NCBI RefSeq assembly: GCF_035989285.1
Contig: NZ_CP108513.1
Span: 2,604,001 to 2,668,000, forward strand
Direction of reading: 5' to 3'
Length of the DNA stretch: 64,000 bases
Source of the DNA: Streptomyces sp. NBC_01235
GTDB lineage: Bacteria > Actinomycetota > Actinomycetes > Streptomycetales > Streptomycetaceae
Position numbers and translations under genes: made by a program
Shown here: one piece after another, positions 34,093 to 40,138 of the stretch
Numbering within the stretch: the stretch's first letter is position 1
How the letters are laid out: every line of letters starts with the position of its first letter
The notes under the pieces: generated by a model
What the model was told of the DNA's origin: nothing
Seen by the model: only the letters and a program-made list of their open reading frames with translations
The model's database searches: none

Positions 34093-35793
34093 ATGTTCCG
34101 ACCCGCACGCGAACCACAGAGCAAACGCCATGTCCGCTCCTCCTTCTACGTCGTCGGCGAGGGCATCCTCGCCGAGTCCCGGGACGGCCGGCCGGCGGAG
34201 CCGCTGACCGCCTCGACCGTGGCGGACCTGCGCAAGTTCCGCTTCTCCCGGCTCGGCCCCCACTCCAGGCCGGCCCAGCAGCTCGACCGGAACGCCCGCA
34301 CCGAACTGGCCAGGGCGATGACGGACCCCGAGCGGGACCAGCCCGACCAGCCGGGAGTCCCGTCGGGGTTCACCTACCTCGGCCAGTTCGTGGACCACGA
34401 CCTCACGCTGGACGCCACCGCGGTGCGCCTGGAGGACGAGATCACCGTCCGCCAGCTCCTGCAGGGGCGCTCTCCGGCCCTCGACCTCGACTCCCTCTAC
34501 GGCCTCGGGCCCGACCACCGCTTCGACCGCCGCTTCTACGAGGACGACGGGATCAGGCTGAAGACCGGGACGACCCAGGGTGTGCCGAACGACCCCTCCA
34601 TCGTGGGCCGGCCCCCCGCCGGGTTCGACCTGCCCCGGGCGGGCTCGGGCTCGCTGAAGTCCGAGCGGCGCCGGGCACTGATCCCGGACCCGCGCAACGA
34701 CGAGAACCTGATCGTCGCCCAGATCCACACCGCCTTCATCCGGTTCCACAACCGGGTGGTGGCCGACCTCGTCGGCAAGGGCGTGTCGAGCGCGGTCCTG
34801 TTCGAGTCGGCGCGCGAGACGGTCGTCAAGCACTATCAGTGGATGCTGCGCCACGACTTCCTGCGCAGGATCGTCGACCCCGAGATCGTCGAGGACGTGT
34901 TCGACAACGGCCGCCGGGTGTTCGAGCCGGCGCCCGGTGAGCACGACCTGCCGACCATGCCGATCGAGTTCTCCGTCGGCGCCTACCGGCTGGGCCACAG
35001 CATGGTCCGGGGCCGCTACAACTGGAACCGGGTCTTCGACCAGGGCCGCGGCACGTTGGAGCTGCTGTTCCGGTTCAGCGGCACCAGTGGCATCCTCTCC
35101 CCGCCTCCCGCCGACCCGGCGGACCCGGAGGCGGGCGATTTCGAGCGCCTGCCCACCAACTGGATCGCCGACTTCCGGCGGCTGTTCGCCTTCCAGGAGG
35201 CGGTACCGGAACGGCCCGAACTCCAGGTGCCCGAGGCCCAGTTCAACCTCGCCAAGCGCATCGACACCCTGCTCGTCAATCCGCTCGCCAACCTGCCGCT
35301 CGGTTCCTTCGGCGGCCGAGGCCGGCCGGCGCCCCCGGAGATCGAGCTGAACCTCGCCTTCCGCAACCTCACCCGAGCCTCGATGCTGCGGCTCGCGACG
35401 GGACAGCAGATGGCCGAGTACTTCATCGACCGGAAGGTCGACGTGGAGCCGCTCACCAAGGCCGACTTCACGCAGGGCGGCGGGGCGCAGCTCTCGTCCG
35501 AGCTCGCGGACGCGGTCGCCAAGCACGCCCCGCTGTGGTTCTACGTCCTGCGCGAGTCCGAGGTGAAGGGCGGCGGGAAGCTGACCGGCGTCGGCGGCCG
35601 CATCGTCGCCGAGGTGTTCCACCGGGCCATGGAGGGCAGCCGGCACTCGATCGTGCGCGATCCCTTCTGGCGTCCCTTCCTCAGCCCGGTCGAGGACCGC
35701 AACGCGAACGACGTCTTCGAGATGACCGACCTGCTGCTGTACGCCTTCGAGGGCCGGGCGGACCAGCTCAACCCGCTGGGTCCGGTGACCTGA
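34093..35793 (+). CDS. haem peroxidase of the animal peroxidase superfamily
   Basis: A 566-residue protein. The distal histidine is H102 in GQFVDHDLTLD, the proximal histidine is H302 in YRLGHSMVRG, and the catalytic arginine region is DPRNDENLIVAQIHTAFIRFHN. This matches bacterial members of the peroxidasin-cyclooxygenase superfamily. There is no signal peptide. Such enzymes use hydrogen peroxide to oxidise halides or organic compounds; the natural substrate here is unknown. The start is ATG 34093. It may form a stress-response pair with the PPOX gene before it, though an operon is not shown. Confidence 0.9.
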   Translation: MFRPAREPQSKRHVRSSFYVVGEGILAESRDGRPAEPLTASTVADLRKFRFSRLGPHSRPAQQLDRNARTELARAMTDPERDQPDQPGVPSGFTYLGQFVDHDLTLDATAVRLEDEITVRQLLQGRSPALDLDSLYGLGPDHRFDRRFYEDDGIRLKTGTTQGVPNDPSIVGRPPAGFDLPRAGSGSLKSERRRALIPDPRNDENLIVAQIHTAFIRFHNRVVADLVGKGVSSAVLFESARETVVKHYQWMLRHDFLRRIVDPEIVEDVFDNGRRVFEPAPGEHDLPTMPIEFSVGAYRLGHSMVRGRYNWNRVFDQGRGTLELLFRFSGTSGILSPPPADPADPEAGDFERLPTNWIADFRRLFAFQEAVPERPELQVPEAQFNLAKRIDTLLVNPLANLPLGSFGGRGRPAPPEIELNLAFRNLTRASMLRLATGQQMAEYFIDRKVDVEPLTKADFTQGGGAQLSSELADAVAKHAPLWFYVLRESEVKGGGKLTGVGGRIVAEVFHRAMEGSRHSIVRDPFWRPFLSPVEDRNANDVFEMTDLLLYAFEGRADQLNPLGPVT

Positions 35794-35888: not shown

Positions 35889-36620
35889 ATGCGCCCTCGT
35901 GTCGTCCCTCGTGTGGCCCCTCGTGTCCCCGCCACCGCCCTCGTCTGCGCCTCCCTCCTCCTGCTCGGTGCGGCTCCGGGTACCGGCGCCCACCCGCCGC
36001 TGCCCGCGCGGATGGCGGACACCGGCGGCGGCACGCAGTTGATCACCGCCGTGGCCCGGGAGGCCGACGCCACCTCGGGCACGCTCACCTGGTGGGACCT
36101 GCGGGACGGGCGGTGGGCGGCGGCCGGTTCCACACCGGCCCGGTTCGGCGCGAACGGCCTGGTCGAGGGGGCCTCGCGACGGCAGGGCACGAACACGACG
36201 CCCACCGGCCTGTACGGCCTCCCGTTCGCCTTCGGCGTCCAGCCGGCGCCGAGCGGGACGTCGTACCCGTACCGTCCCGTGCGCCGGGACTCCTGGTGGT
36301 GTCAGGACAACGACTCCCGTGCCTACAACCGGTGGACCGAGCCACGGCCGGCCGACTGCCGCGCCGCCGAGTCCGAGCACCTGGTCACGTACCGGACGCA
36401 GTACGCGTACGCACTGGTCATCGGGTTCAACTACGGCGAGCCGGTGCGGGGGCGCGGTGCGGGGATCTTCCTGCATGTCGACGGGCGCGGGGCGACGGCC
36501 GGTTGTGTGTCGGTGCCGGTGGGGGCGATGCGCCGGATACTGGCGTGGGCCCGGCCGTGGGAGCGGCCGCACATCGCGATCGGCACGGCCGACGGCCCGA
36601 CGGCGATCAGCCGGTATTGA
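35889..36620 (+). CDS. secreted L,D-transpeptidase (YkuD-like)
   Basis: A 243-residue protein with a signal peptide (about residues 1-36, RVAPRVPATALVCASLLLLGAAPGTGA). The catalytic motif is FLHVDGRGATAGCVSVP with the nucleophile at about C206 and the His upstream, as in the YkuD family. It should form or edit 3-3 peptide cross-links in the wall, or attach proteins to peptidoglycan. The start is ATG 35889. It lies directly before the flavocytochrome operon but with a 158-bp gap, so co-transcription is uncertain. Confidence 0.85.
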   Translation: MRPRVVPRVAPRVPATALVCASLLLLGAAPGTGAHPPLPARMADTGGGTQLITAVAREADATSGTLTWWDLRDGRWAAAGSTPARFGANGLVEGASRRQGTNTTPTGLYGLPFAFGVQPAPSGTSYPYRPVRRDSWWCQDNDSRAYNRWTEPRPADCRAAESEHLVTYRTQYAYALVIGFNYGEPVRGRGAGIFLHVDGRGATAGCVSVPVGAMRRILAWARPWERPHIAIGTADGPTAISRY

Positions 36621-36778
36621 GCGACCGCACCCCCAAAGGACGTGCACGCGGCCCGGGCAGGGGTTATCGGCGGTCACTTCGGGTTTCGACCGTACTGGAC
36701 GGTCTCGGTGAACGGCTGAACACTCCGCGGCTGCGGCCCGTATCTGTGGGTCAAGGGTCAAGTCCCCACGGAGGAACC

Positions 36779-38161
36779 GTGACCACCACGATCGCAGGCG
36801 GACGTGCCGCCCGCCGCCAGACGATGCGCCGCATCCGCCCGCGCCGATCCCCGGCCGTCCCGTTGCTGCTCGCCGTATGGGCGGGCGCGGCGGGCGTGCT
36901 GTGGCTGTGGTGGGCCAACACGCCGAACATCGCGGACACCAACAGCAAGATCCTCAACGCGGGACGCATCACCGGCCTGCTCGCCGGGTACCTGATGGCA
37001 CTCGTCGTGCTCCAGATGGCACGGGTGCCGGCGCTGGAGCGGCGGGTGGGCTCGGACCGGGTCGCACGCTGGCACGCGATGAGCGGCCGGTACACGCTCT
37101 GCCTGGTCTTCGCGCACGTTTTCCTCACCATGTGGGGGTACGCGCTACAGGCCGGCAAGTCGCTCGGCGACATCGTCCAGCAGACGATCGACTCCGTCAA
37201 CCAGCTGCCGGACATGGGCAAGGCCGCCATCGGCACCGGCTTGTTCCTGCTCATCGGCCTGGTGTCGGTCGGTCCGGTGCGGCGCCGGATGCCGTACGAC
37301 ACCTGGTACCACATCCACCTGTTGACGTACGGGGCCGTGTTCCTGACGTTCTGGCACCAGATCACCACCGGCAACGACTTCGCGATCGAGCCGACCGCGA
37401 AGACCGCCTGGTACGTGCTGTACGGGTCGGTCACCGCGCTGGTCGTCTGGTACCGCATCGTCACCCCGCTGCGGCTGAACCTGCGACACCGCCTGTACGT
37501 CGAGGCGGTCATCGAGGAGACGCCCGGCATCGTGTCCGTCCTGATCGGTGGGCGCAAGCTGCACCGGATGGGCGCGGAGGCCGGCCAGTTCTTCCGGTGG
37601 CGGTTCCTGGCGCCCGGGATGCGGTTCAGCTCCCACCCGTACTCGCTGTCCGCGGCGCCCCGCCCGGAGCTGATGCGGATCACCGTCAAGGCGATCGGCG
37701 ACCACAGCGCGGCGCTGCGTGAGCTGCGGCCCGGCACGAAGGTGTGGGCCGAGGGCCCGTACGGCGCGATGACGGCGTCCCGGCGCAGCCGCGGCAAGGT
37801 GCTGCTGGTGGCCGGCGGGGTCGGCATCACACCGATGCGGGCGCTGTTCGAGACGCTGCCGGGCGCGGCCGGTGACATCACCCTCCTCTACCGGGCCAAC
37901 AGCACCCAGGACCTGGCGCTGTGGGACGAGCTGGCGAAGATCGCCGACGAGCGCGGGGCGCGGCTGATGTACGCCGTCAACAGCCCCGACGGGGAGCGCC
38001 CCGACATCTCGGCGGAGTCCCTGCAGCGGAAGATCCCCGACATCGACAGCCACGACGTCTTCATGTGCGGACCGAACGGCTTCGCCCAAGGGGTGTACGA
38101 GGCACTGCGCGGCGCCGGGGTCCCCGCCCGCCGTATCCATCACGAGTCGTTCGAGATGTGA
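36779..38161 (+). CDS. ferric-reductase-like membrane flavocytochrome
   Basis: A 460-residue protein. Residues about 25-225 hold six transmembrane segments with histidine pairs (RWHAMSGRYTLCLVFAHVF and YHIHLLTYGAVFLTFWHQ) fit for b-type haem. Residues about 235-460 are a ferredoxin-NADP reductase-like cytoplasmic part: FAD motif SSHPYSLS, NAD(P) motif VAGGVGITPMRAL, and MCGPNGF at the end. The start is GTG 36779 after GGAGG. The next two genes encode an FMN-binding protein and ApbE, so this protein likely passes electrons from NAD(P)H across the membrane to covalently bound flavins outside. Confidence 0.9.
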   Translation: MTTTIAGGRAARRQTMRRIRPRRSPAVPLLLAVWAGAAGVLWLWWANTPNIADTNSKILNAGRITGLLAGYLMALVVLQMARVPALERRVGSDRVARWHAMSGRYTLCLVFAHVFLTMWGYALQAGKSLGDIVQQTIDSVNQLPDMGKAAIGTGLFLLIGLVSVGPVRRRMPYDTWYHIHLLTYGAVFLTFWHQITTGNDFAIEPTAKTAWYVLYGSVTALVVWYRIVTPLRLNLRHRLYVEAVIEETPGIVSVLIGGRKLHRMGAEAGQFFRWRFLAPGMRFSSHPYSLSAAPRPELMRITVKAIGDHSAALRELRPGTKVWAEGPYGAMTASRRSRGKVLLVAGGVGITPMRALFETLPGAAGDITLLYRANSTQDLALWDELAKIADERGARLMYAVNSPDGERPDISAESLQRKIPDIDSHDVFMCGPNGFAQGVYEALRGAGVPARRIHHESFEM

Positions 38162-38217
38162 GCGACCCGCACTTACGGGAACCTCGCCACCAACGGGAAT
38201 CAGGAGCTCAGGAAGAG

Positions 38218-39345
38218 ATGAGGAAGAGCCACCCTCTTCGGCGCGTCGTGCTGGCCACCGCCGCCACCGTGTCCGGGATCGTGCTGCTGCTGTCGCTGAA
38301 GCCGTCCTCCGACCCGGCCTCCGCGCAGGCGGCGGGCTCGGGTTCGGGCGCGACGGCGCAGGAAGCGGCCCAGGGCGGGGCCGGGGCACCCGTGACGGGG
38401 ACGATGACCGGGGACGCGGTCACCACGCAGTACGGCAACGTCCAGGTCCGCATCACCGTCGTCAACAACAAGATCACCAAGGCGGAGGCCGTCCAGGCGC
38501 CCAAGGGCGGCACCAGCGACCAGAAGACCGCGCTGGCCGTCCCGAAGCTCAACGCCGACGTGGTCGCCAAGCAGAGCCCGGACATCGACACCGTGTCGGG
38601 CGCCACGTACACCAGCGAGGGCTACAAGAAGTCCCTGCAGTCGGCGATCGACAAGGCGAACGCGAGCGCGGGGGCCTCCCAGGGGTCCGGGTCCGGCAGC
38701 GCGCAGGCCTCCGGCACCTTCACCGGGGACGCGGTCCAGACGCAGTACGGCAACGTCCAGGTGCGGATCACCGTCGCGGGCGGGAAGATCACCAAGGCGG
38801 AGGCCGTACAGGCGCCCAAGGGCGGCACCAGCGACCAGAAGACCGAACTGTCCGTGCCCAAGCTCAACCAGGAGGCGGTCGCGGCCGGCAGCGCGGACAT
38901 CGACTCGGTGTCCAGCGCCACCTACACCAGCGAGGGCTACAAGAAGTCCCTGCAGTCGGCGCTGGACAAGGCGAAGGCGGGCGCGGGTTCGTCGTCCGGG
39001 TCGGGGTCGTCCGGGTCGGGGTCGTCCGGATCGGGGTCGTCCGGATCGGGCTCCTCCTCGGGCGCCGCTCAGGCCAAGACCGTCACCGGCAGCGTCCAGC
39101 AGACGCAGTACGGTCCGGTCCAGGTCCGGATCACCGTCGCCGGTGGGAAGATCACCAAGGCGGAGGCCGTCCAGGCACCCTCGGGCGGGACCAGCTCCCA
39201 GAAGACCGAACTGTCCGTGCCCAAGCTCAACCAGGAGGCGGTCGCGGCCGGCAGCGCGGACATCGACTCGGTGTCCGGCGCCACCTACACCAGCGAGGGC
39301 TACAAGAAGTCACTGCAGTCGGCGCTGGACCAGGCTGGTGGCTGA
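38218..39345 (+). CDS. triple FMN-binding-domain protein
   Basis: A 375-residue exported protein. A single N-terminal hydrophobic segment (about 9-26) acts as signal or anchor. Three FMN-binding domains follow (about 60-142, 166-248, 289-371). Each has Q-Y-G-x-V-Q-V-R-I-T and ends in an ApbE recognition motif D-[TS]-V-S-[GS]-A-T, giving flavinylation threonines T130, T235 and T356. The middle motif has Ser instead of Gly (VSSAT). Between domains 2 and 3 is a Gly/Ser linker (SGSGSSGSGSS repeats). With ApbE next door, each domain may carry covalent FMN and act as an extracytosolic electron carrier. The start is ATG 38218. Confidence 0.92.
   Translation: MRKSHPLRRVVLATAATVSGIVLLLSLKPSSDPASAQAAGSGSGATAQEAAQGGAGAPVTGTMTGDAVTTQYGNVQVRITVVNNKITKAEAVQAPKGGTSDQKTALAVPKLNADVVAKQSPDIDTVSGATYTSEGYKKSLQSAIDKANASAGASQGSGSGSAQASGTFTGDAVQTQYGNVQVRITVAGGKITKAEAVQAPKGGTSDQKTELSVPKLNQEAVAAGSADIDSVSSATYTSEGYKKSLQSALDKAKAGAGSSSGSGSSGSGSSGSGSSGSGSSSGAAQAKTVTGSVQQTQYGPVQVRITVAGGKITKAEAVQAPSGGTSSQKTELSVPKLNQEAVAAGSADIDSVSGATYTSEGYKKSLQSALDQAGG
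38995..39054. repeat. 15-bp tandem repeat encoding the Ser/Gly linker
   Basis: Four copies of a 15-bp unit (TCCGGGTCGGGGTCG and variants) at 38995-39009, 39010-39024, 39025-39039 and 39040-39054. They encode a repeated S-G-S-G-S unit of the linker between domains 2 and 3. Unit length is a multiple of three, so linker length can vary without frameshift. Confidence 0.8.
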
Positions 39346-40138
39346 GACGGTGGCCGAGTCGGCGCAGGCTCCCGCCGTGGTGCGGCACGCGGAAGAGGTC
39401 ATGGGGACCGTCTTCTCCTTCGACATCCGCGGCGGGGAGGCCGGGGCGGTGCGGGCGGCGCTGGAGGAGGCGATCGCCTCGCTGCACCGGGTGAACGAGG
39501 TGTTCAGCACCTATCGCGAGGACAGCCAGGTCTCCCGGCTGGTGCGAGGCGAGCTGACCGTCGAGGAGTGCGATCCCGAGGTGGCCGAGGTGCTGGAGCT
39601 GGGCGCCGAGGCGGAGCGGGTGAGCGACGGCTGGTTCAGCATGCGCTACCAGGGCCGGCTCGACCCGACCGGCATCGTGAAGGGCTGGGCCGCCGAGCGC
39701 GCGGCCCGGCTGGTCGCGGCGGCGGGAGTGAGCGGAGTCAGCGTCAACGGCGGTGGGGACGTGCAGTTGCTGGGCGTGCCCGGGCCGGAGCGGCCGTGGC
39801 GGGTCGGGGTGTCCGATCCCCTGCGGCCGGGCGGGCTGGCGGCGGTGGTGTCGGCGGCCGGGGCGGACGAGCTGGCGGTGGCGACGTCCGGGACGGCGGA
39901 GCGGGGCGCGCATATCGTCGACCCGCGCACGGGCCGCTCCGCGGTGACGGATCTTGTGGCCGTCACGGTGGTCTCCCCCCGTCTGACCTGGGCGGACTGC
40001 TGGGCGACGGCCGCGTTCGCGATGGGCTCGCGGGAGGCGCTGGCATGGCTGGAGTCGCTGCCCGACGTGGAGGCACTGCTCATCACCGCGGGCGACGAGG
40101 TGCGGTGCACCGGCGGGTTGGCGAGACGGCTCGGCTGA
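39338..40138 (+). CDS. apbE: FAD:protein FMN transferase
   Basis: A 266-residue ApbE-family enzyme. It shows VMGTVFSFDI, STYREDSQVSRL, LDPTGIVKGWAAERAA (flavin and metal binding), VNGGGDVQLLG, VATSGTAERGAHIVDP and TWADCWATAAFA with the Mg-binding Asp near 220. It transfers FMN from FAD to a Thr or Ser of target proteins; the FMN-binding protein directly upstream has three target motifs. The start is GTG 39338, overlapping the previous stop by 8 bases; a GTG at 39350 is an alternative. No signal peptide is seen, so flavin transfer may take place before export, or the enzyme starts further upstream. Confidence 0.9.
   Translation: MAETVAESAQAPAVVRHAEEVMGTVFSFDIRGGEAGAVRAALEEAIASLHRVNEVFSTYREDSQVSRLVRGELTVEECDPEVAEVLELGAEAERVSDGWFSMRYQGRLDPTGIVKGWAAERAARLVAAAGVSGVSVNGGGDVQLLGVPGPERPWRVGVSDPLRPGGLAAVVSAAGADELAVATSGTAERGAHIVDPRTGRSAVTDLVAVTVVSPRLTWADCWATAAFAMGSREALAWLESLPDVEALLITAGDEVRCTGGLARRLG

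Follow-up and report, generated by a model that had tools for sequence, protein, structure and literature searches.

A three-gene operon for surface flavins

Within a 64,000-nucleotide stretch of the Streptomyces sp. NBC_01235 genome (contig NZ_CP108513.1, positions 2,604,001 to 2,668,000; the window), which is assembled as one contig of 11.09 Mb, three adjacent genes on one strand encode a membrane flavocytochrome (g1), a protein with three flavin mononucleotide (FMN)-binding domains (g2) and ApbE (g3), the transferase that takes FMN from flavin adenine dinucleotide (FAD) to protein. The operon is real and well conserved, and the module is an MsrQ-like flavinylation system, a known bacterial kind with a studied homologue. 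New here is the pairing of a leaderless ApbE with an FMN substrate that bears an export signal, and this is the part worth an experiment. The features are as follows, in window coordinates.

36717..36743, + strand: promoter-like element TGAACA-N16-CGTAT of the extracytoplasmic function (ECF)-sigma type, a conserved motif upstream of g1
36779..38161, + strand: g1, flavocytochrome with a ferric-reductase-type membrane domain and a C-terminal NAD(P)H-binding domain (PF01794, PF00175; H99/H113/H180/H193)
38218..39345, + strand: g2, triple FMN-binding protein with an N-terminal signal anchor and Ser/Gly-rich linkers (PF04205 three times; PDB 8p2a)
38401..38657, + strand: FMN domain 1 of g2, a 257-nt repeat with motif SGAT and T130
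38716..38972, + strand: FMN domain 2 of g2, a 257-nt repeat with the variant motif SSAT and T235
39079..39335, + strand: FMN domain 3 of g2, a 257-nt repeat with motif SGAT and T356
39338..40138, + strand: g3, ApbE FAD:protein FMN transferase, compact and leaderless (PF02424; hydrophobic segment absent)

The genes start with GTG, ATG and GTG and encode 460, 375 and 266 residues, with 56 nt between g1 and g2 and an 8-nt overlap of g2 and g3. Pfam identities and coordinates both agree with an earlier note on this DNA, which had proposed a close-spaced or overlapping flavocytochrome, triple FMN protein and ApbE: g1 scores 66.2 bits for PF01794 and 40 bits for PF00175 (PF08022, at 21.5, falls marginally below its cut-off of 22), g2 scores 102.2 bits for PF04205 over three stretches and g3 scores 163.2 bits for PF02424. 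Whole-protein profile E-values of 3.6e-18, 2.5e-29 and 1.1e-47 for g1, g2 and g3 are more than chance. Other profiles on g2 were set aside: DUF6174 and HutF_N pass their cut-offs overall with no single stretch passing, which we take as effects of the repeats, and identity as NqrC (subunit C of the Na+-NQR) is rejected at a best score of 36.9 bits against a cut-off of 455 (TIGR01938, 35.8 against 144).

Linkage of the three genes, which the earlier note had named as the thing to examine in relatives, is kept. Among 80 Streptomyces loci with g1, a match to the FMN gene comes next in all 80 and apbE follows in 76; the sequence of the other four ends no more than 0.6 kb past g1, so linkage is 76/76 where the locus is untruncated. 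Outside Streptomyces we took one good flavocytochrome match per genome, chosen among the matches listed, and the resulting 60 actinomycete loci hold the FMN gene in 55 and both partners in 51, a linkage that is conditional on the flavocytochrome because the loci were picked by it. Contig ends account for four of the nine loci without apbE (L109, L123, L147 and L152). Co-occurrence, also raised earlier, holds as well: ApbE is found in 79 of 79 FMN_bind-bearing Streptomyces genomes sampled (those up to G149), with ApbE and no FMN_bind in 7 genomes. The system is nevertheless patchy in the genus, since FMN_bind is present in 106 of 199 sampled genomes and ApbE in 86 of 150. FMN–ApbE cassettes also occur on plasmids, in S. 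decoyicus (L179), Microbacterium (pNx66, L180) and Leuconostoc (L181), with VIT-family genes beside the latter two and a two-component system beside the first two.

A leaderless ApbE beside an exported substrate

g3 is a compact ApbE, whose PF02424 match runs over profile positions 1–74 and 125–266 and skips 75–124. The source genome has three further copies; the one at 8.37 Mb skips the same positions, and those at 7.97 and 10.63 Mb match nearly the whole profile. Six diverse compact ApbEs share, without variation, the HxxDPxTG motif and a later D and T. Ahead of its conserved MGT motif g3 has an extension of 21 residues from which a hydrophobic segment is absent, and two close homologues from the protein database have the same kind of start. 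We scored leaders as a 12-residue window with mean hydropathy of at least 1.6, allowing the N-terminal extension from any possible start. None of 52 ApbE copies from 51 other actinomycete loci reaches this value (highest 1.16), and g3 lacks the N-terminal export leader that marks a secreted-lipoprotein ApbE. Leader-bearing controls score 2.68 (E. coli), 3.02 (Hymenobacter), 2.79 (Bacteroides), 2.09 (Spirosoma) and 1.63 (Paracoccus), and low values are returned by the ApbEs of Rahnella (0.49, beside flavocytochrome c) and Leuconostoc (0.36). Judged by eye, the other three ApbEs of the source genome have no leader either; with all four copies leaderless, a PF02424 search finds no exported ApbE in this genome. 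The 7.97 Mb copy (L101) is followed by a membrane-protein gene (by eye), with no FMN_bind match there.

The substrate does carry an export signal. g2 has a hydrophobic segment at residues 10–28, and an N-terminal hydrophobic signal is present in 58 of 59 FMN proteins of other actinomycetes (55 of 59 by a stricter measure). Twin arginines occur in all 79 Streptomyces FMN-B N-termini, located in 79 of 81 loci (the 85-row set of N-termini includes six FMN-A reads), and in 43 of 43 FMN-A N-termini; basic positions nearby vary, with K or R at position 2 and K, N or R at position 5. Because ApbE is leaderless while the FMN proteins bear export signals, the flavins are probably attached before the protein leaves the cell, the reverse of the order given in textbooks. 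A compact cytosolic ApbE would load FMN from cytosolic FAD onto the g2 domains, and the loaded protein would then cross the membrane and stay anchored; twin-arginine translocation (Tat) is our first guess for the route. We infer both the site of loading and the route of export, and tentatively propose, at a little short of an even chance, that actinomycete surface flavins are attached inside by a leaderless ApbE and that the finished flavoprotein is exported, probably folded, by Tat or by a use of the signal that resembles Tat.

Several observations count against this order of events or against Tat. The 58 signals of other actinomycetes comprise 27 with RR, 16 with KR and 15 with neither; of the FMN paralogues in the source genome one reads RH and that at 8.36 Mb has no RR; and the residue preceding RR is hydrophobic. 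Strict Tat dependence was accordingly discarded as a candidate, the class-wide signals not carrying it. Leader absence is itself a prediction, for which the weakest leader-bearing control (Paracoccus, 1.63) sits close to the threshold, and the leaderless Rahnella enzyme, adjoining flavocytochrome c, belongs to the known cytosolic type.

The same module could instead be served by an ApbE that acts outside, leaving the cell by a non-classical exit or piggy-back on the FMN protein, so that flavinylation is extracytosolic. Precedent favours this: in excerpts of a 2025 review a secreted ApbE is the rule, most characterised ApbEs being secreted lipoproteins and the cytosolic kind serving a soluble substrate (PMC12052999), excerpts of the SaFMN3 study take flavin transferases to act outside (PMC10339131), and the E. 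coli, Hymenobacter, Bacteroides, Spirosoma and Paracoccus enzymes show leaders. With a leader in none of the 52 actinomycete copies and none of the four in the source genome, we consider an outside ApbE distinctly unlikely.

Loading inside would set these clusters apart from the nearest described cases. The Listeria FmnB/PplA pair likewise has an extracytosolic protein to which an ApbE-like enzyme attaches FMN, but FmnB, in excerpts of PMC9973259, acts on the outer side and is supplied with exported FAD, whereas the ApbE of our operon is leaderless; the same excerpts set proteins that receive their cofactor in the cytosol and then leave by Tat against those that are exported by Sec and fold outside. 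The cytosolic Klebsiella ApbE shares the missing signal peptide, but its substrate in the review excerpts is a soluble fumarate reductase (PMC12052999), and that of g3 carries an export signal. The literature passages and listings, supplements not covered, hold no statement that pairs a leaderless ApbE with exported substrates in actinomycete clusters.

The flavocytochrome and the triple FMN protein

Transmembrane haem pairs follow a rule of histidine spacing, and g1 places H99 and H113 14 residues apart and H180 and H193 13 apart, a pattern that, read from sequence, is that of two transmembrane haems. None of the four histidines varies among the flavocytochromes, 61 of 61 from other actinomycetes and 81 of 81 from Streptomyces (window counted), and the flavin and NAD motifs are kept for the most part. 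Two haem sites are likewise predicted for MsrQ-like proteins in excerpts of Meheust et al. 2021 (PMC8238504), which also describe such flavinylation clusters as broadly conserved in Actinobacteria and as joining a PF01794 membrane protein, often with a C-terminal NAD-binding domain, to an FMN-binding protein and apbE. The operon has this composition, with PF01794 and a NAD-binding domain in g1, adjacent FMN_bind and apbE genes, and four membrane histidines that would hold haem. Those excerpts, supplements not covered, mention neither a leaderless ApbE nor the promoter nor the sister gene block described below. The earlier note is likewise silent on these three features. Invariant histidines, the hydrophobic N-terminus of g2 and conserved linkage all support the route from NAD(P)H through the membrane to outer FMN that had been suggested earlier.

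With its three FMN_bind domains g2 has the domain make-up of a multi-flavinylated protein, and its best structure match is PDB 8p2a (E 9.7e-38), the sole PDB match at E 0.001. This entry is the crystal structure of domain 2 of SaFMN3 from S. azureus, a protein that has been purified, carries three covalent FMN by electrospray ionization mass spectrometry, has a potential of –184 mV and reacts with O2 (PMC10339131). The biochemistry, treated as open in the earlier note, is thus in hand for a triple-FMN homologue with one domain crystallised. Both proteins have three FMN_bind domains, flexible linkers, a predicted N-terminal anchor and equivalents of the acceptor Thr, Tyr14, Ser42 and Thr74; g2 differs in having Lys for the domain-2 Ile45, which stacks on the flavin in 8P2A, in all of its domains, and SSAT in domain 2. 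Across 162 domains from 73 loci the Tyr14 and Ser42 equivalents are present in all, the acceptor is Thr in 154 and Ser in 8, and the Ile45 equivalent is Lys in 123, including the three of the window.

The motifs lie at residues 127–130 (SGAT), 232–235 (SSAT) and 353–356 (SGAT) and place the putative acceptors at T130, T235 and T356, as had been proposed; an ApbE motif in every domain stands for domains 1 and 3, and domain 2 has S for G relative to the consensus Dxx[S/T]GA[S/T] (PMC10339131). The repeats are less alike than the description 'nearly identical' implied. Compared with the middle copy, the outer two have nucleotide identities of 84 and 90%, and protein identities are 79% (domains 1 and 2), 73% (1 and 3) and 88% (2 and 3). 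Orthologous domains of the seven nearest relatives (L008–L014) are 85–98% identical to those of the window, mostly above the 73–88% within the protein (the exception is domain 3 of L014, at 0.85), which makes the triplication older than this clade; the recent expansion first suggested is unsupported, and one within this strain was rejected. One protein elsewhere, L061, does carry two identical domains.

Domain number varies among loci. Once eight of the 81 with cut or frame-broken domains are excluded, the remaining 73 have two whole domains in 53, three in 18 and one in 2. Two-domain proteins appear mildly homogenised: similarity within a protein exceeds that across species by a mean of 0.044, and the difference is above zero in 46 of 53.

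Promoter, sister block and neighbouring genes

Upstream of g1, TGAAC[AG]-N16-CGTA[TC] is found in 81 of 81 loci with a spacer that is always 16, and the CGTAT form occurs in 69 of 81 such regions versus 0 of 48 regions upstream of fcA, the second flavocytochrome gene described below. The promoter form has 33 matches across the whole source genome. A promoter of the same form, TGAAC-N17-CGTATA at sco6178, is in excerpts of the S. coelicolor sigma-E table (PMC6767563), and sigma-E may be the actual factor; those SCO156x–157x tags that were looked for are absent from the main text of that paper. Control of the window operon by OsdR or an iron box was rejected, with no site upstream of g1.

Of the 76 loci that extend 5.5 kb or more upstream (window counted), 45 have a whole sister block directly upstream, comprising a divergent sensor kinase and response regulator, fcA and the single-domain fmnA; the other 31, one of which is the window, have none of the four genes. 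In the source genome the block is about 7 Mb away, among PPDK, GAF-kinase, CBS and Usp genes; genes of these kinds are near three of four distant copies (the exception is L167), and excerpts on the S. coelicolor OsdR regulon list a similar gene set (PMC5069765). The source genome has two more flavocytochrome–FMN pairs: the one at 5.08 Mb lacks apbE, and the one at 8.37 Mb has a sensor kinase, response regulator and apbE of its own. The three-domain state is found in 16 of 27 loci without the sister block and 1 of 45 with it (Fisher p 4e-8, 72 loci). Parsimony on the same loci counts 10 changes for the block but only 3 for the three-domain state, so that much of the association is explained by kinship. 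We rejected a trade-off that would keep every locus at three flavins, made up of three domains where the block is absent and of two plus one where it is present.

Two genes upstream of the operon a haem peroxidase of the animal-haem-peroxidase family (PF03098) is encoded at 34093–35793; we rejected a functional tie to the operon, a full-length homologue being present in just 5 of 80 relatives' loci. A YkuD L,D-transpeptidase gene follows at 35889–36620 and in relatives often stands directly upstream of the operon or the sister block. The genes downstream of the operon are presumably argR, argD, argB and argJ.

Electron route and terminal acceptor

Cytosolic NAD(P)H would reduce the flavin of the flavocytochrome, and two haems would carry the electrons across the membrane to covalent FMN on three domains that are joined by flexible linkers and anchored on the outer side. 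A diffusible acceptor (O2, Fe(III) or quinones), and not a dedicated partner enzyme, would take them up there; we infer the direction of flow. Taken as a whole, a complete MsrQ-like module with loading inside by a cytosolic ApbE, a diffusible acceptor and an ECF or envelope-stress-type promoter is the probable explanation of the locus. Other findings pull the opposite way. Five of the 60 loci, uncut by contig ends (L117, L119, L131, L145 and L151), are without one or both partners, and the FMN gene looks frame-broken or interrupted in the Streptomyces drafts L024, L055 and L080. The SSAT of domain 2 departs from the consensus, and Lys in place of the flavin-stacking Ile45 means that potential and O2 reactivity may differ from those of SaFMN3. 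Covalent FMN on the window domains is itself predicted from sequence by analogy with the three of that homologue. The cassette has VIT-family neighbours on two plasmids, and 2 of the 60 actinomycete loci (L164 and L166) contain such a gene as well.

We favour a diffusible acceptor without deciding between O2, iron and quinones. Of the gene families next to the cassette just two exceed 3 of the 60 loci, a sensor kinase and a response regulator (13 loci each, by a crude gene caller and with the regulator named by eye). This lack of any other recurring family would also suit an oxidase resembling NADPH oxidase (NOX), whose outer FMNs would chiefly turn O2 into H2O2 for use in signalling, competition or wall chemistry, as would the nearby peroxidase gene and the reoxidation of reduced SaFMN3 by O2 at 1.2 per s (PMC10339131). 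That rate is slow, however, the reduced oxygen species were unquantified in that study and the peroxidase gene is full-length in only those five relatives, leaving such an oxidase possible but doubtful. Methionine-sulfoxide repair, in which the flavocytochrome would serve an MsrP-like enzyme through the FMN protein, draws on the homology of MsrQ to these PF01794 proteins (PMC8238504, excerpts), but no partner enzyme recurs beside the cassette (MsrP was not searched genome-wide), and we hold it highly improbable.

Membership of g1 in PF01794 could point to an assimilatory ferric reductase that would act on Fe(III) or on ferric siderophores at the cell surface, and VIT-type genes stand beside the cassette on the Microbacterium and Leuconostoc plasmids and in L164 and L166, with 153 VIT1-bearing MsrQ-like clusters reported in excerpts of PMC8238504. 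Yet tblastn with two VIT proteins gave no match in the window or the 80 Streptomyces loci and matches in just 2 of the 60 others. The best iron-box-like site upstream of g1 has 10 mismatches of 19 to the consensus box, and such a reductase seems unlikely. Nor do we see much chance for an overflow valve that would pass electrons to quinones or redox-active metabolites during hypoxia or dormancy. The OsdR-regulon-like surroundings of three of the four distant sister blocks speak for it, as do OsdR-like sites scoring 16.0 and 15.4 elsewhere in the source genome's copy of the block; but this evidence bears on the sister block and not on the window operon, the best site between fcA and the response regulator gene scores 10.4, below the 13.1–18.6 of known sites, and the best upstream of g1 scores 0.98. 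Scores of this size arise elsewhere too, as an unrelated site in the window, at 14.1, shows.

Regulation could be approached through the conserved promoter of ECF type and through the sister block, which is present whole or not at all, and the variation in domain number provides natural comparisons for the purpose of a multi-flavin chain. If loading inside is true, FAD export would be needless and the order of export first, flavinylation second would be reversed. A leaderless ApbE that loads a protein bound for the outside would mean that the picture of an exported transferase supplied with FAD fails for actinomycetes, and the supply of surface flavins in this phylum would become a directly testable question.

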